A stretch of DNA of 9,862 nucleotides from Candidatus Omnitrophota bacterium (GTDB taxonomy: Bacteria > Omnitrophota > Koll11 > JAHIPI01). This document shows, in pieces, positions 1 to 6,788 of the stretch; the first letter of the stretch is position 1, and each line of letters starts with the position of its first letter. A program made the translations under genes and the position numbers. The stretch is from positions 1 through 9,862 of the forward strand of contig JAQUMG010000054.1 of NCBI GenBank assembly GCA_028718265.1, written 5' to 3'. A model generated the notes under the pieces. That model was given only the letters and a program-made list of their open reading frames with translations. It searched no databases and was not told the origin of the DNA.

Positions 1-184
1 CAGAATCTTCATCAACTTTCAGGCCTTCTTCGATTACATAACGCTGGCCTATGGGTTTTATGAATCCGACTTCGCCAAACCGCTTTCGAAACGCCGCTAT
101 CAGACCGAGTGAAACCGTAGTCTTGCCGTCATTCTGGCGCGTAGCTGCTATAAATACTCTTTTCGGCCGTCTGAGTATTCTCAT
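1..184 (-). CDS. P-loop ATPase, dethiobiotin synthetase/CobQ-like (partial, N-terminal 61 residues)
   Basis: Only the N-terminus is in the window; the gene runs off the left edge. The visible protein starts MRILRRPKRVFIAATRQNDG and has a deviant Walker A loop, ATRQNDGKTT, at residues 14-23. It is followed by a helix (SLGLIAAF) and a strand with FIKPIGQRY at 41-49. A loop in place of the usual GxxxxGKT and the KPIGQ strand are typical of the dethiobiotin-synthetase/cobyrinate-synthase ATPase fold, also found at the N-terminus of long phosphotransacetylases and in DRTGG-domain ATPases. The start was chosen because its ATG overlaps the TGA of the acsE-type gene (ATGA), which implies translational coupling. 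The substrate cannot be told from this fragment. A role in cofactor or corrinoid metabolism would fit the neighbours but is only inferred. Confidence 0.7.
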   Translation of the reverse strand, partial: MRILRRPKRVFIAATRQNDGKTTVSLGLIAAFRKRFGEVGFIKPIGQRYVIEEGLKVDEDS

Positions 185-975
185 AAAAGTTTGCCTGCTC
201 TGAAATTTTTTATATATTCAAGACAGAATTCATCGTCGCCCAAAAGCGCTGCCGATGTCTTCAGGATGGCATCTATTTTTTTATTCAACGGATCCAGAAT
301 GGCTGCATCCAGCCCCGCAGAAAGCATCATAGCTAAAAATACCGCATTGAGCATGCTTCTGTCGGGCAAACCGAACGAAACGTTACTCAATCCGCATGTT
401 AGTTTCGTATCAGAGGCTGACTTTATCAGCTTTACGGCCTTAATTACTTCCAGTGCCTGTTTGGGTTCGCTGCTTATCGGCCGCACCAGAGGATCCACAT
501 ACAGGTCCGCGCCGGGTATGCCGTAACTTTTCACAAGGTCTAACGCCTTCTTGGCCATATCGGCTCTTTCGCCGGCCGTTTCGGGCATGCCGCGCTCGTC
601 TATTGTTAATACGATAATGCCGGCCTTATATTTTTTTACAAGCGGGAGTATGACATCGCGCCTTCCCTTCTCAAGTGTAATAGAGTTTACAATGGCCCTG
701 CCCTTATGAACGCGCAAGCCTGCTTCCGTCGCCTCGGGATTGGGACTGTCTATTGATAGCGGAAGATTGGTCTCCTTCTGCACAATACCAACAAGCCATT
801 CCATATCTTTCGCCTCGTCTTTGGTATTGAAAGCGCAGTTTACATCGAGCATTTGAGCGCCCGCGGCTTTTTGAAGCGCTGCTTCGCGGCGGATAAAGGC
901 TTCATCTTTATTTTCCAGCGCCCGCGCTATCGTTGCCCTTGAGCTATTTATTCTTTCACCGATCTTAATAAACAT
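181..975 (-). CDS. acsE: Methyltetrahydrofolate:corrinoid/iron-sulfur protein methyltransferase (AcsE-type)
   Basis: This 264-residue protein matches the length (about 262) and layout of the Moorella AcsE pterin-binding TIM barrel. AcsE moves the methyl group of 5-methyltetrahydrofolate to Co(I) of the corrinoid iron-sulfur protein, the last step of the Wood-Ljungdahl methyl branch. Visible motifs are IGERIN at 5-10, LDVN at 43-46, SIDSPN at 74-79 (Asp76 corresponds to pterin-binding Asp75), YVDPL at 159-163 (Asp161 corresponds to Asp160) and GLSNVS at 195-200 (Asn198 corresponds to the catalytic Asn near 199). There is no cobalamin-binding or homocysteine domain, which argues against MetH. 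The ATG at 975 has AAGAGG seven bases upstream, in a 13-base gap after panE. The stop overlaps the next gene by four bases. A related corrinoid methyltransferase of a different system remains possible, because no corrinoid protein gene is in the window. Confidence 0.87.
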   Translation of the reverse strand: MFIKIGERINSSRATIARALENKDEAFIRREAALQKAAGAQMLDVNCAFNTKDEAKDMEWLVGIVQKETNLPLSIDSPNPEATEAGLRVHKGRAIVNSITLEKGRRDVILPLVKKYKAGIIVLTIDERGMPETAGERADMAKKALDLVKSYGIPGADLYVDPLVRPISSEPKQALEVIKAVKLIKSASDTKLTCGLSNVSFGLPDRSMLNAVFLAMMLSAGLDAAILDPLNKKIDAILKTSAALLGDDEFCLEYIKNFRAGKLL

Positions 976-988
976 GTTACGGCCTCTT

Positions 989-1927
989 CTATTGCACTTT
1001 TTCTACTATATTTTTATAATTCATTTCGATGGACTTTACCAGCTCGACCAGCATCTCGTTGGTCGGCGTTTTTATGTTCAGACTTTTTGCCTGCCGTACG
1101 ATCGCGCCGTTTATGTAGTCAATTTCCGTCAATTCCCCGGCAATGACATCCTGCAGCATGGATGAGAGGTTATCAGCCGTGGCCCTGCACACCGCTTCGA
1201 CTTTTTGTATGGGATCGTCATAAGTTAACTTTGCTTTTTTCCTCTTGGCTACTTTTACCGCCTCGGATACGGCCCGTCTCATGATCTCGCGGGTATATTC
1301 ATTTTCTACAAGCGCGCCGTTTTTAAGACGCGTTATGGCGCTCGGGGCATTTATGCCCACGTTTATGACAAGCTTGCTCCATATGACTGAATTTATGTCC
1401 TTTGTTATCTTGGTCGAAAAACCCGCCTTGGTTAAAATAGCGGCTATATCTCTTATCTCTCCCAGCACTTTTCCGTTTTCCTGCCCTATAATCGTCTCGC
1501 CTTTTCCGGTATGTCTCACCGTAACATCATTGACTAAAGTTGCGCCATGATACGTGACTCCGCCTATAATTTTGTCATTATCGACAAATTCGCTTATCAG
1601 CTGCAAATTTCCGAGGCCGTTTTGCAGACTTAATATGTAAGTCTTTTCCCCGATAAGGGCCTTGGCGTTCTTCAGCGCGCCTTCGGTATCATAACACTTA
1701 ACGCAGATCATGATAATGTCGGCAGTCCCTATATCCTTGCAGTCAGAAACGGCGCTGACCTTGACCCTGGAGCTGGTATTTCCGTTTTCTATCCTGACGC
1801 CGTCTTCGGATAATTTCTTAGCTCTATCAGCGTTTTTGTCAAGCACCCATATCTCGTTCTTCGTACGCGCAAGATGCGTCGCTAATAATAACCCTAATGC
1901 TCCCGGCCCCACAATAGCTATTTTCAT
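989..1927 (-). CDS. panE: 2-Dehydropantoate 2-reductase (ketopantoate reductase)
   Basis: The protein has 312 residues, normal for the family. It reduces ketopantoate to pantoate with NADPH, the second step of the pantoate arm of pantothenate/CoA synthesis, in the cytosol. The N-terminal Rossmann domain opens with a GPGALG dinucleotide loop at 7-12. A conserved LQNGLGN segment follows at 101-107. The helical C-terminal domain has WSKLVIN at 183-189, whose Lys185 corresponds to the catalytic lysine, and SSMLQD at 255-260 followed by TEIDYINGAIV, whose Glu268 corresponds to the conserved substrate-binding acid. All key residues are present, so an active enzyme is expected. The ATG overlaps the panB stop codon as ATGA, so panB and panE are probably translationally coupled. 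The pair sits between two folate one-carbon genes, metF and acsE. panC and panD are not in the window. Confidence 0.93.
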   Translation of the reverse strand: MKIAIVGPGALGLLLATHLARTKNEIWVLDKNADRAKKLSEDGVRIENGNTSSRVKVSAVSDCKDIGTADIIMICVKCYDTEGALKNAKALIGEKTYILSLQNGLGNLQLISEFVDNDKIIGGVTYHGATLVNDVTVRHTGKGETIIGQENGKVLGEIRDIAAILTKAGFSTKITKDINSVIWSKLVINVGINAPSAITRLKNGALVENEYTREIMRRAVSEAVKVAKRKKAKLTYDDPIQKVEAVCRATADNLSSMLQDVIAGELTEIDYINGAIVRQAKSLNIKTPTNEMLVELVKSIEMNYKNIVEKVQ

Positions 1928-2742
1928 AGTATTTTTTCAAGCTCCTCTTTTTTCATTGTGAAGCTATTTTCTTTTCTGGGGAACTCCCCTTTTTCTACTT
2001 CCGTTTTATATCGCGAAATCGCTTCTTTTGCCAGCGCGCCCAAGTCCGCGTATTTTTTTGCGAATTTCGGCAAAAACTTATCGAATAAGCCTAGTACATC
2101 ATTAAGGACGAGGATCTGGCCGTCGCATGAAGGCCCGGCACCGCAGCTGATCGTCGGTATTGACAAACTTGATGTTATAATTCCTGCGAGTTCTGCCGGC
2201 ACGCACTCTAAAAGTACACCAAAACAGCCTGTATTTTCTAATCTTTTTGCTGCCGCTACTATCTCCACGGCTGCGGCAGCGTTCTTACCCTGAACTTTAA
2301 ACTCCGAAGCTGTCTGCGGTGTAAGTCCGAGATGTCCCAGAACGGGAATCCCGCGTTTTATTATAGCAGACGCGGCTTCATAGGGTTCGCCCTCAAGCTT
2401 TACCGCCTCGCACCCTGCTTCCTCCGCAAATCTGGACGCATTTTTAACGGCGTCTTGCACATTCTCATATGATTTATAAGGCATATCTCCTATCAATAAC
2501 GCCCGCTTGGTCCCGCGTCTCACTGCTTGCGCATGCCGTATCATATCGTCCATCGTCACATGAATAGTCGATTCATAACCCAGAACGACCATGCCGAGAG
2601 AATCGCCTACTAATATGCCATCTACGCCGGATTCATCTACCATCTTGGCCAGAAAATAATCATAGGCAGTAAGCATTACTATCTTCTTGCCGTATTTTTT
2701 CTTCTGATTCAGATACGAAATTGTGACTTTTTCTTCGCTCAC
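1924..2742 (-). CDS. panB: 3-Methyl-2-oxobutanoate hydroxymethyltransferase
   Basis: PanB transfers a hydroxymethyl group from 5,10-methylenetetrahydrofolate to 2-oxoisovalerate, giving ketopantoate. It has 272 residues, a usual length, and a TIM-barrel pattern. Visible are LTAYDY at 24-29, LVGDSLGM at 44-51 (Asp47, metal ligand), IGDMP at 84-88 (Asp86, metal ligand), KLEGE at 115-119 (Glu117), GHLGLTPQ at 136-143, LLECVPAELA at 177-186 (Glu179, the conserved catalytic acid) and GAGPSCDGQ at 201-209. The usual TIGIGAG is TISCGAG here, a mild deviation. The start is GTG at 2742, seven bases after the metF stop, with a GAGG ribosome-binding site overlapping that stop codon. Its cosubstrate is the product of FolD and the substrate of MetF, both encoded just upstream, so its place in this operon makes metabolic sense. 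Confidence 0.95.
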   Translation of the reverse strand: MSEEKVTISYLNQKKKYGKKIVMLTAYDYFLAKMVDESGVDGILVGDSLGMVVLGYESTIHVTMDDMIRHAQAVRRGTKRALLIGDMPYKSYENVQDAVKNASRFAEEAGCEAVKLEGEPYEAASAIIKRGIPVLGHLGLTPQTASEFKVQGKNAAAAVEIVAAAKRLENTGCFGVLLECVPAELAGIITSSLSIPTISCGAGPSCDGQILVLNDVLGLFDKFLPKFAKKYADLGALAKEAISRYKTEVEKGEFPRKENSFTMKKEELEKIL

Positions 2743-2747
2743 CTTAA

Positions 2748-2752
2748 CCTCA
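2748..2752 (-). promoter_or_regulatory. Shine-Dalgarno overlapping metF stop, for panB GTG start
   Basis: On the minus strand TGAGG combines the metF stop TGA with a GAGG ribosome-binding site. Five bases (TTAAG) separate it from the GTG start of panB. The good spacing supports GTG as the real start and points to termination-reinitiation coupling of metF and panB. Confidence 0.7.
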
Positions 2753-3616
2753 AAACCCTGCCGCGTCCAGCACCAGCGGAACCTTCTTGTTCATTCCTAT
2801 CGACATAATATGTATCCCGCCGGCCAGTCCTTTTAAGTCTTTTATGAAACGCGCAGCTATCTCTATGGATTTTTTATCCCTGTCTTCTGCTTTTCCCATC
2901 TCGGTTATTATCGATTCCGGTACAAATACGCCCGGCACGTGCTTATTCATAAAGTTTGCCATCTCTGCGCTTTTCAGGACAACAACGCCTGCTATGATGG
3001 GCACGCCGAAGCCTTTAACCGTCTTCATAAATTTTTCGAACGCGTTAATATCAAAAATTGCCTGTGTCTGAAAAAATTCCGCGCCGGCGGCGATCTTCTT
3101 TTCCATCTTGATCAGCTCCGGTTCAAGCGGCTCAACGCCCGGATTTACTACAGCGCCCAGGCAAAATTTTGGGACACCGCGTAATTTCTTCCCTGCAATG
3201 TCTTGTCCGTTTTCGAGCAGCCGCGCCGCCCGCAAGAGCCCCACCGAATCTAAATCATACACCGGCTTAGCTTCGGGATGATCGCCCAGACTCGGATGAT
3301 CTCCGGTCAGAATAAGGACATTTCTTATACCTAAAATATATGCCGATAGTAAGTCCGATTGAAGCGCCAGTCTGTTTCTGTCGCGGCAAGTCATCTGATA
3401 TATCGGCTCTATTCCGCGCTCAATCAGAATCCGGCTGAAGGCTAGCGACCCGACCCGCATGACCGAACTCTGCAGGTCTGTCACATTTATGGCATCAACG
3501 CGGCCTTTGACAAGCGCGGCATCGGCAAGATGTCCGGCAATGTCCACCCCCTTAGGCGGGCCTATTTCGCTTGTTATCATAAATTTTTTTGCTTTAAGTT
3601 TCTCGCTGAATGTCAT
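2750..3616 (-). CDS. metF: Methylenetetrahydrofolate reductase (MetF family)
   Basis: This flavoprotein reduces 5,10-methylene- to 5-methyl-tetrahydrofolate and so feeds the methyltransferase encoded further downstream. The 288 residues form a single MTHFR barrel with no C-terminal extension. Visible are SEIGPPKG at 16-23 (Glu17 corresponds to the catalytic glutamate near the flavin), TDLQSS at 46-51, TCRDRNRLALQSDL at 76-89 and ILTGDHP at 102-108, which line the FAD/folate site. The TCRDRN...LTGD form resembles MTHFRs of acetogens, of archaea and of the homocysteine-methyltransferase/MTHFR fusions more than E. coli MetF. The ATG directly follows the folD stop (TAAATG), with AGGAAGG ahead of it inside folD. 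No metV and no hdr or rnf genes lie in the window, so the electron donor cannot be inferred. Confidence 0.93.
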   Translation of the reverse strand: MTFSEKLKAKKFMITSEIGPPKGVDIAGHLADAALVKGRVDAINVTDLQSSVMRVGSLAFSRILIERGIEPIYQMTCRDRNRLALQSDLLSAYILGIRNVLILTGDHPSLGDHPEAKPVYDLDSVGLLRAARLLENGQDIAGKKLRGVPKFCLGAVVNPGVEPLEPELIKMEKKIAAGAEFFQTQAIFDINAFEKFMKTVKGFGVPIIAGVVVLKSAEMANFMNKHVPGVFVPESIITEMGKAEDRDKKSIEIAARFIKDLKGLAGGIHIMSIGMNKKVPLVLDAAGF

Positions 3617-4477
3617 TTATGCCTTCCTGATCTTATTTTTATACAATTCTACTACATTTTTCATCAACATAACAGTCGTCACGGGGCCTACGCCGCCGGG
3701 CACGGGCGTAATATATGCCGCAACTTTTTTTGCACCGTCAAAATCCACATCACCGGATATTTTATCGCCGTTTTTATTTATGCCCACATCTATCACTATC
3801 GCACCTTTTTTGATCCAGTTGCCTTTTATTAAATACTTTTTTCCGACCGCGACGATAAGTATATCCGCTTTATTTACATGCTCTTCTAGTAACCCTGCTT
3901 CGTAAGTCCCGATATGACAAACTGTCGTTGTGGCCAGCCTTGACAATAACATAAGTGATAATGGCTTGCCGACTATGGCAGAATGGCCGATGATCACAGC
4001 CTCCTTACCTCTCAATTTTACGCCTGTTGAATCTATCAATACCATGCAGGCACTGGCAGTACATGGTGCTACTGTCCAGTTTTCGTATGCAAGTTTACCT
4101 ATATTTGAGGGATTTAACCCTTCAGCGTCTTTATGCGGAGCGATTTTTTCAAACAATCTTTCAATCTTCAGGGATTTTGGTACCGGTGTTTCTATAATTA
4201 TGCCGGTAACCGAATTGTCTCCATTCAATTTTAATATTTCATTTTCTGCTTCTTTCTGGGAAATTGACGATGAGAGCTCTCTTACGTAATATTCTATGCC
4301 GAGTTCGTCCGCAAGCTTCTTTTGGGCACTCAGATAGACGCCGGATGACGTGTCTTTTCCTATTTCGATCACCGCCAGTTTCATTTTTTCGTGAAGCGAT
4401 AACGATTCAATATCGCGCTTTATCGTGCGCTTTATTTCATCCGACATCTTTTTGCCGTCAAGTATCCGGGAATCCAT
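3617..4477 (-). CDS. folD: FolD-family methylenetetrahydrofolate dehydrogenase, cyclohydrolase site altered
   Basis: The protein has 286 residues, full length for FolD, which normally interconverts methylene-, methenyl- and 10-formyl-tetrahydrofolate. The two-domain layout is kept: a folate domain, then a Rossmann domain with IIGHSAIVGKPLS at 162-174, and the folate-binding PVPGGVGP loop at 258-265. Ungapped comparison with the E. coli and human enzymes shows that the YxxxK motif reads Y48-L-S-A-Q52, so the catalytic lysine (human Lys56, E. coli Lys54) is glutamine. The VQLPLP motif reads IETPVP, so the conserved Gln (human Gln100) is Glu96. The KDVDG motif reads KDAEG, so the folate-binding Asp (human Asp125) is Glu119. 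PCTP is PCTA. Known mutants of the human lysine lose cyclohydrolase activity. I infer a dehydrogenase that relies on FchA, encoded seven bases upstream. Its NAD or NADP preference is unclear: the position of human Arg173 is His165. Confidence 0.9.
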   Translation of the reverse strand: MDSRILDGKKMSDEIKRTIKRDIESLSLHEKMKLAVIEIGKDTSSGVYLSAQKKLADELGIEYYVRELSSSISQKEAENEILKLNGDNSVTGIIIETPVPKSLKIERLFEKIAPHKDAEGLNPSNIGKLAYENWTVAPCTASACMVLIDSTGVKLRGKEAVIIGHSAIVGKPLSLMLLSRLATTTVCHIGTYEAGLLEEHVNKADILIVAVGKKYLIKGNWIKKGAIVIDVGINKNGDKISGDVDFDGAKKVAAYITPVPGGVGPVTTVMLMKNVVELYKNKIRKA

Positions 4478-5099: not shown

Positions 5100-6788
5100 T
5101 TACGATAGTCCTATGATATCCCCTTTTTTATCTATATCTATCCGCGTACCTATGGGGTTCGCCGGAAGTCCCGGCATCGTAGTTATGGTTCCGCAAATGG
5201 GTGTAATAAAGCCTGCTCCGGCAGACAGATGCACATCCCTCACCGGTAAAGTAAATCCTTTGGGCGCGCCCTTAACCGACGGGTCTGCGCTTAATGATAG
5301 ATGCGTCTTGGCTATGCACACAGGCAGTTTCCCGTAACCGAGTTTTTCGTAGCGGGCGATTGCGCTATCGGCAATCGTCGAATAGATGACCCGGGTAGCA
5401 CCGTATATCTCTTTCGCTATTTTTTCTATCTTATCTTTTATCGGCGAATTCAACCCGTACAGGAACTTAAATCTGTTTTTACTTCCCGCCGCCAGTATTA
5501 CCGCTTTGGCAAGTTCCGTACCGCCTTTCGAGCCGCGCTCCCAAAGTTCGCTTACTACCGCATCATCCGCGCCGGCCAAAAGTGCCTTCTTGCGTACAAG
5601 TATTATTTCCTTCGCAGTATCAGTAGAAAATTTATTTATAACGACTACGACCGGTATGCCGAACTTTTTTATATTTTTTATCTGCCTCTCGAGATTAGCG
5701 CAGCCTTTTTCCAGCGCACCAAGATTCTCCCTGAACAGCTTCTTATCTACGGGCTTCCCGGCGATCATTTTAAATTTCCCGCCGTGCATCTTCAGGGATC
5801 GTACGGTCGAGACCAAAACGGCAGCATCCGGTACCAGGCCGCTGGTTCTGCATTTTATGTCAAAAAACTTCTCGCCGCCTAAGTCGGCACCAAAACCGCT
5901 TTCGGTAACGACATAGTCTGAAACCGCCAGAGCCATCTTGTCCGCTATTATCGAACTGTTTCCATGCGCTATATTCGCAAATGGTCCGGTATGGATGAGG
6001 CACGGTGTTTGTTCTGTAGTCTGGACGAGATTCGGCTTAATGGCTTCTTTTAGAAGTGCTGCCATCGCACCTGCCACATTCAGATCCTTCGCGGTAACCG
6101 GTTTGCCGGCGGTCGTCAAAGCCACCACAACACGGTCAAGTCTGCGCCTCATATCCTCAATATCGCGCGAAAGAGCGAGAATAGCCATCAATTCGCTCGC
6201 CACAGTTATGTCAAAGCCGCTATCTCTTGAAGAGCCGCTTTCCCCCAAACCAATCTTTACGTTTCTGAGCGATCTGTCATTAATATCCAGAACTCTGCGC
6301 CACATAACTGCCTTAGGGTTGATATCCAGCTTATTTCCTCTGAATATCGAATTATCCAAAAACGCCGCCAGAATGTTATGCGCGACACCGACGGCGTGTA
6401 TATCGCCGGTAAAATGCAGGTTTATATCTCCGTTAGGAAGTACTTGTGAACGGCCGCCTCCTGTCCCAACGCCTTTTGCGCCGAAGATCGGTCCCATTGA
6501 AGGCTGCCGGAGACATACTATCGACTTCTTACCCATTCTATTCAGCGCCATGGACAGGCCTATGGTCGTAACAGTCTTCCCTTCTCCAAAAGGACTCGGC
6601 GTGATAGCCGAAACTAATATGTATTTTCCTTTGTGGCGGGTAGATTTTCCTTTCAAAAAGTCCAAATTTATCTTGGCTTTATACCGGCCTTGTATTTCTA
6701 CATACTTCGCCGGTATGCCGGCGCGCCTTGCAACGTCTTTAATTTCGGCCAGTTTTCCTTTTTTTGATCTTCCTGAACTTGAAAGCAT
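5100..6788 (-). CDS. fhs: Formate-tetrahydrofolate ligase (10-formyl-THF synthetase)
   Basis: Fhs activates formate with ATP and joins it to tetrahydrofolate, the entry step of the Wood-Ljungdahl methyl branch. The 562 residues are the normal length (about 555-560) for the homotetrameric bacterial enzyme. Motifs are YKAKINL at 36-42, the ATP loop TPSPFGEGKT at 63-72, LRQPSMGP at 93-100, NLHFTGDIHAV at 123-133, KPNLVQT at 251-257, GPFANIAHG at 268-276, GFGADLGGEKFFD at 298-310 and, near the C-terminus, LSAGAGFITPI and TMPGLP. Two deviations are seen: LREPS of Moorella is LRQPS, which also occurs in eukaryotic C1-THF synthase, and the near-invariant KGGAAGGG is KGVGTGGG at 105-112. The ATG lies 13 bases after rnhB, with AAGGA about ten bases upstream, slightly long. 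fchA follows after 15 bases. Confidence 0.96.
   Translation of the reverse strand: MLSSSGRSKKGKLAEIKDVARRAGIPAKYVEIQGRYKAKINLDFLKGKSTRHKGKYILVSAITPSPFGEGKTVTTIGLSMALNRMGKKSIVCLRQPSMGPIFGAKGVGTGGGRSQVLPNGDINLHFTGDIHAVGVAHNILAAFLDNSIFRGNKLDINPKAVMWRRVLDINDRSLRNVKIGLGESGSSRDSGFDITVASELMAILALSRDIEDMRRRLDRVVVALTTAGKPVTAKDLNVAGAMAALLKEAIKPNLVQTTEQTPCLIHTGPFANIAHGNSSIIADKMALAVSDYVVTESGFGADLGGEKFFDIKCRTSGLVPDAAVLVSTVRSLKMHGGKFKMIAGKPVDKKLFRENLGALEKGCANLERQIKNIKKFGIPVVVVINKFSTDTAKEIILVRKKALLAGADDAVVSELWERGSKGGTELAKAVILAAGSKNRFKFLYGLNSPIKDKIEKIAKEIYGATRVIYSTIADSAIARYEKLGYGKLPVCIAKTHLSLSADPSVKGAPKGFTLPVRDVHLSAGAGFITPICGTITTMPGLPANPIGTRIDIDKKGDIIGLS

Follow-up and report, generated by a model that had tools for sequence, protein, structure and literature searches.

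The FolD protein encoded on contig JAQUMG010000054.1 of a Candidatus Omnitrophota bacterium is probably a dehydrogenase-only enzyme, with the cyclohydrolase step performed by the FchA-type protein encoded next to it. We infer this activity, as well as the direction of the pathway and the cofactor, from the residues of the protein, their conservation, the operon, the co-occurrence with fchA and the predicted fold. The whole stretch of 9,862 nucleotides that was analysed is referred to here as the window.

In the proposed mechanism the window FolD would act as a methylenetetrahydrofolate dehydrogenase and no longer catalyse the methenyltetrahydrofolate cyclohydrolase step. FchA would interconvert 10-formyl- and 5,10-methenyl-tetrahydrofolate, and FolD would interconvert 5,10-methenyl- and 5,10-methylene-tetrahydrofolate using a nicotinamide cofactor. 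With Fhs acting before and MetF and AcsE after these two, the proteins would make up the methyl branch of a Wood-Ljungdahl or C1-reducing pathway based on folate. In the active site, the Lys supporting the cyclohydrolase step would have been replaced by Gln, the Gln partner of that Lys would then have been free to drift (to Glu in the window FolD), and the pterin-binding carboxylate would have been retained, as Glu. Acetogenesis and full or partial Wood-Ljungdahl pathways have been described for Omnitrophota in the accessible text of PMC10066038.

The window FolD and its gene neighbourhood

The window FolD contains both Pfam domains of the family (PF00763, 94.2 bits with a cut-off of 32.8; PF02882, 201.7 bits with a cut-off of 27), and its AlphaFold2 model has a mean pLDDT of 91.4, with human MTHFD1 (1a4i) as the best solved match (TM 0.92). 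Alignment with 1a4i placed Q52 over K56, E96 over Q100 and E119 over D125, which together with the codons bears out the three substitutions reported in the first-pass annotation (Table 1). Tyr48 is encoded by TAT. The protein consequently fails a residue test for bifunctional FolD (YxxxK, Gln100 and Asp125 in human numbering). The same annotation had described the PVPGG loop and the Rossmann core as intact and free of frameshifts, in agreement with the open frame, the domains and the model. All NCBIfam FolD models matched by the window FolD are named bifunctional, and its score was below the cut-off in all 25 families listed of the 30 matching (best NF008058, 286 against a cut-off of 355).

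The gene belongs to a one-strand run of fhs, fchA, folD, metF, panB, panE and acsE, where fhs/fchA, fchA/folD and folD/metF are separated by 15, 7 and 0 bp; fchA is thus directly upstream of folD, as first annotated. Within this run, metF is followed by the pantothenate pathway genes panB and panE (window 989-2742), and these by acsE. PanB consumes methylene-THF.

Table 1. Features of the window discussed in the text
Feature	Position	Strand	Evidence
acsE-type methyltetrahydrofolate:corrinoid/iron-sulfur protein methyltransferase	181..975	-	NF005719, 311.2 bits (cut-off 259); end of gene run
metF-type methylenetetrahydrofolate reductase	2750..3616	-	PF02219, 134.4 bits; first base right after the end of folD
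folD, Gln/Glu type, 286 aa	3617..4477	-	ORF, PF00763 and PF02882; lacks YxxxK
codon GAA, Glu119, for pterin-binding Asp (human Asp125, E. coli Asp121)	4121..4123	-	alignment, codon
codon GAA, Glu96, for Gln (human Gln100, E. coli Gln98)	4190..4192	-	alignment, codon; drifting in the branch
codon CAA, Gln52, for catalytic Lys (human Lys56, E. coli Lys54)	4322..4324	-	alignment, codon
fchA-type cyclohydrolase, 199 aa	4485..5084	-	PF04961, 128.2 bits (cut-off 24.5)
fhs, formate-tetrahydrofolate ligase	5100..6788	-	PF01268, 806.7 bits

The window FchA is a member of PF04961 and scored 89.6 bits against the FchA equivalog NF045657, below its cut-off of 275, a cut-off that was reached in none of the 115 Bacillota genomes with a match. 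Its matches in the PDB are 1o5h, 1tt9 and 7vg4, the last being an FchA entered there as a methenyltetrahydrofolate cyclohydrolase. Judged from its NF045657 score, the window FchA is diverged, with PGGG and Asp79 retained. Asp79 corresponds to residue 412 of FTCD (1tt9; ungapped count from 339), and Asp412 of porcine FTCD is the active-site Asp. The residue is conserved in all 139 aligned rows (93/93 from Omnitrophota and 46/46 from Bacillota).

In the cofactor loop, residue 165 of the window FolD, which precedes a Ser, is His. At this position Arg was found in 97 of 109 FolDs with the Lys-Gln-Asp residues of the bifunctional type, and among 127 Gln/Glu FolDs (Gln for the Lys and Glu for the Asp) His was found in 75 and Gln in 25. 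The replacement of Arg by His or Gln hints at a shift in cofactor preference. The inhibitor carolacton touches Lys54 of E. coli FolD and the K54N variant is insensitive to it, according to the available text of PMC5688156, and by analogy Gln/Glu FolDs may be naturally carolacton-insensitive.

Conservation of the substitutions and pairing with fchA

A protein search with the window FolD scored 7,999 candidates and gave 7,996 matches. Among the best 120 of these, which include the window protein, residue 52 was Gln in 119 and Leu in one, residue 119 was Glu in 119 and Asp in one, and residue 96 was Gln in 83, His in 17, Glu in 8 and others in 12. The best nine relatives with an organism name were all from Omnitrophota genomes (loci L001-L009). 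Out of 193 Omnitrophota genomes sampled, 179 encode FolD, and 90 of these 179 FolDs were read (30 top-scoring, 40 picked down the list and 20 fetched around fchA, of which two span both). Residue 52 was Gln in 87, Leu in two and Ile in one; residue 119 was Glu in 90/90; residue 96 was Gln in 50 and any of ten other residues in the remaining 40 (S, H, A, T, F, E and others), with Glu in two. In three Omnitrophota FolDs (L185, L189 and L191) the Lys is Leu or Ile and residue 96 is Phe; Glu119 is retained, and each locus contains fchA.

As judged from these columns, the change of Lys to Gln with Asp to Glu is an old, branch-wide pair, and position 96 is drifting, the Glu of the window FolD being one of its states, and a rare one in Omnitrophota. 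The three residues had initially been regarded as one set; the Lys to Gln and Asp to Glu pair stands, whereas the Gln100 position is relaxed, and a joint three-residue signature was rejected. Residue 96 may be free to vary because Gln100 mainly works with Lys56, as can be taken from the accessible text of PMC3368264.

The search for fchA-type genes used PF04961 for Omnitrophota and Planctomycetota, and NF045657 for Bacillota. A first scan found fchA within 1 kb of folD in 9/9 Omnitrophota loci. Of the 193 Omnitrophota genomes, 179 have an fchA-type gene and 178 have both genes, i.e. 178/179 of those with FolD. Genome G090 gave a weak fchA match alone (E 1.6e-6) in that search, and its FolD piece begins at a contig end. 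Among the 90 loci read, 18 of which were fetched around fchA, 88 contain fchA; the two others are from G143, where folD and fchA are at two contig ends, and G106. The 30 Planctomycetota proteins examined were the best matches to a Gln/Glu query, which biases the ratio of classes: 27 were Gln-x-Glu, 25 of them in genomes with an fchA-type gene, and three were Lys-Gln-Asp, one of them in such a genome.

In Bacillota, FolD was found in 192 and an fchA-type gene in 115 of 199 genomes, and FolD was read in 188 of the 192 (unread: G231, G232, G246 and G286). A Lys-Gln-Asp FolD is kept in 79/80 genomes without an fchA-type gene. Of the 112 FolD genomes that have such a gene 108 were read, and 41 of these 108 have a Lys-Gln-Asp FolD: among the copies read, 67 genomes lack this type, 34 have only this type and 7 have both types. 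The Lys-Gln-Asp FolD is thus lacking among the copies read in 67/108 genomes with an fchA-type gene versus 1/80 without (Fisher p ~8e-21, which ignores kinship and unread copies; Fisher values overstate the evidence because related genomes are not independent). At least five of the 67 (G262, G284, G295, G354 and G360) have another, unread copy. The FolD copy of G320 ends after the Lys site.

In 48 Bacillota genomes (36 + 12) a FolD adjoining fchA was read, and in none of the 48 was this FolD Lys-Gln-Asp. As the 60 loci L195-L254 were mostly chosen for a nearby fchA, the adjacent pairs do not give a frequency; FolD was not found beside fchA in 11 of the 60, and ten of these genomes were read later (G232 is the unread one). 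Many fchA-linked FolDs of Bacillota either retain the Lys and carry Glu in place of the Gln, or carry Ala, Leu, Ile, Val or Met in place of the Lys. Loss of the Lys, one of the changes noted at the outset, is thus only one of several patterns. FolDs that keep the Lys and have Glu for Gln98 (L195, L196, L198-L214 and others) often adjoin fchA, and this group may have arrived at the same specialisation by another route.

Altered FolDs (Gln-x-Glu or Ile-Gln-Glu) are also present in 8 of the 80 fchA-free Bacillota genomes. Seven of the eight in addition hold a Lys-Gln-Asp FolD, with the two genes close to each other in G263, G305 and G337, and the same kind of close pair occurs in six genomes with an fchA-type match (G233, G275, G313, G348, G378 and G403). 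Tandem or close Gln-x-Glu and Lys-Gln-Asp genes were seen at L219, L231, L351, L353 and L357, and further close pairs at L404/L415, L408/L417, L428 and L230, the last with two other frames between. At L219, L351 and L353 the genes are flanked by a NusB-like frame at one end and an xseA-like frame at the other (names assigned by eye). The two products of a tandem pair might even assemble into a mixed dimer in which one site is dehydrogenase-only and the other bifunctional.

The pairing has exceptions in both directions. Gln/Glu/Glu FolDs in genomes that depend on FolD alone had been anticipated as counter-evidence; there were none among the FolDs read, although four genomes (G106, G456, G544 and G369) have a Gln-x-Glu FolD with neither fchA nor a Lys-Gln-Asp FolD detected. 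No fhs was detected in G106 and G456; in G544 fhs is present, with no fchA-like frame in the stretch around it; and G369 has three altered FolDs. Assembly gaps are a possible cause; survival without the enzyme may be another, as E. coli mutants that lack measurable cyclohydrolase are viable (PMC5688156). An MCH-type cyclohydrolase as the missing enzyme of G106, G456 and G544 was rejected, as PF02289 had no matches in six genomes (five Planctomycetota and one Omnitrophota, a set separate from the genome of the window).

In the reverse direction, Lys-Gln-Asp was the sole FolD type among the copies read in 34 of the 108 Bacillota genomes that have an fchA-type gene. Of 20 fchA-type loci from such genomes, at least eight are near histidine-degradation genes (seven hutI, one urocanase), as judged from one neighbour, picked by eye, that was scanned in 10 of the 20. 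Three of these eight also hold fhs, and the fchA-type gene is near fhs in 3/20. The fchA-type genes near histidine-degradation genes are probably cyclodeaminases, and on the basis of these loci the idea that an FTCD_C gene of whatever kind can be taken to indicate FchA was rejected.

Conservation, operon context and co-occurrence together give good support to both specialisation over decay and a split dehydrogenase/cyclohydrolase pair, as put forward in the first-pass annotation, with the activities themselves predicted. A broader and rather tentative reading is that Gln/Glu FolDs may represent a second, ancient FolD type that catalyses the dehydrogenase reaction alone and would need FchA (Omnitrophota, Planctomycetota) or an often-adjacent Lys-Gln-Asp FolD (some Bacillota).

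Alternative explanations

It is unlikely that the window FolD is still bifunctional, with, for example, Glu119, Glu96 or ordered water replacing the Lys and fchA being accessory. Published mutants point in different directions. In the available text of PMC5688156, E. coli FolD K54N has undetectable cyclohydrolase and ~19% dehydrogenase activity, and Q98H has ~1% and ~8%, respectively; mutants without measurable cyclohydrolase are viable, with K54N slow-growing, which the authors credit to spontaneous hydrolysis. In contrast, K53A of Bombyx mori MTHFD retains near-normal cyclohydrolase kinetics (kcat/Km 0.097 vs 0.13), and D120A retains cyclohydrolase activity with undetectable methylene-THF dehydrogenase kinetics (PMC6443876, Table 2, in the part accessible). 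Position 96 is unconserved in the branch and is therefore improbable as a new catalytic residue. The absence of Lys-Gln-Asp FolD beside fchA in the 48 Bacillota genomes also argues against continued bifunctionality, which the four genomes with such a FolD and no detected alternative would favour.

The role of the Lys in the dehydrogenase step has also been discussed. Lys56 and Gln100 are said to aid hydride transfer too (accessible text of PMC3368264), and their loss could therefore harm the dehydrogenase as well. A computational study, as far as its text was available, assigned human Lys56 no noticeable catalytic role in the dehydrogenase step and left its role in the cyclohydrolase open (PMC9173628). 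Human mutagenesis is summarised in the available parts of PMC3368264, PMC6443876 and PMC9173628; text searches for Lys56 variants did not find the primary human data.

Somewhat less probable still is that inheritance alone explains the pattern, i.e. that an old fhs-fchA-folD operon moved as a unit and the substitutions are neutral and mark only the lineage. A FastTree analysis of 278 FolDs, each of at least 230 aa, was made with duplicates removed, the three columns masked and Curtobacterium-type rows reduced to three; it comprises the genomes read before a later set of 46. All altered FolDs minus two Gln-Gln-Asp proteins formed a clan of 165 (support 0.92, three Curtobacterium intruders), and few changes are required, three for the Gln/Glu class, both as expected from common descent. 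Together with the three Leu/Ile Omnitrophota proteins, this class formed a single clan of 130 (support 1.0) with members from Omnitrophota and Planctomycetota and seven Bacillota copies. Its only intruders were the three Curtobacterium sequences (Lys-Gln-Asp), perhaps placed there by long-branch attraction. Two further groups were pure: Lys-Glu-Asp including one Leu-Leu-Asp member (n=26, support 0.983) and Ala/Ile-Phe/Met-Asp (n=9, support 0.999). Neutral markers fit poorly with the variety of replacements at two recurrent sites: the Lys has become Gln, Ala, Leu, Ile, Val or Met, and the Gln has become Glu, Phe, Met or Leu. Moreover, the altered FolDs, few exceptions aside, belong to genomes with an fchA-type gene or a second FolD, and both Gln-Gln-Asp proteins outside the clan are also from genomes with an fchA-type gene.

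A change of substrate, for example to another pterin with folate no longer served, is very improbable. The Asp is Glu throughout the branch, and this pterin-binding carboxylate has been termed invariant (PMC6443876, accessible text), which would speak for such a change; however, the carboxylate as such is retained, folD is flanked by the folate-enzyme genes fhs, fchA and metF, and MCH was not found in the six genomes searched with PF02289. Decay of the gene, for which only the loss of catalytic residues would speak, was rejected, as the frame is open, the predicted fold is of high confidence and the same residues occur in most of more than 100 homologs.

Implications and comparison with known systems

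If the window FolD and its relatives are dehydrogenase-only enzymes, the two replacements, Gln for Lys and Glu for Asp, would serve as a signature to predict such FolDs, and would thus flag genomes that need FchA or a second FolD. Gln/Glu FolDs offer naturally occurring material for studying how a single active site handles two reactions, and bear on whether Glu substitutes for the pterin-binding Asp once the Lys is lost. In acetogens, split steps would fit pathways running in the reducing direction. A full-text literature search, which covered few subscription papers, did not find a description of the Gln/Glu branch or of its pairing with a normal FolD in some Bacillota, and the words 'lysine' and 'K56' are absent from the main text, as available, of a 2024 family-wide study (PMC11064299).

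The window FolD resembles the bifunctional FolD/MTHFD1 proteins (1b0a, 1a4i) in predicted fold, domain order, Tyr48, PVPGG and the Rossmann core, and differs from them in lacking the Lys of YxxxK and the Gln at position 96, and in having Glu for Asp at 119. A division of labour between dehydrogenase and cyclohydrolase is already known in kind. Clostridium perfringens reportedly has FolD, FchA and Fhs, where FolD and FchA are distinct proteins acting in a single pathway; the fchA-linked FolDs read in Bacillota are mostly Lys-Glu-Asp or Ala/Leu/Ile/Val-Phe/Met/Leu-Asp, and not Gln-x-Glu. In Methylobacterium, MtdA is a dehydrogenase without cyclohydrolase activity and is complemented by FchA, but MtdA is of a different dehydrogenase family. 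Yeast MTD1 (1edz), described as a monofunctional NAD-dependent dehydrogenase, is related to FolD, although the match to the window protein is distant (56.8 bits, residues 40-184 only); to our knowledge MTD1 is eukaryotic and lacks an FchA partner. The E. coli FolD mutants K54N and Q98H are changed at two of the same positions as the window FolD, with cyclohydrolase undetectable or at ~1% and the dehydrogenase partly retained, but unlike the window FolD they are selected laboratory mutants with single changes, and the K54N strain is slow-growing (PMC5688156, available text).
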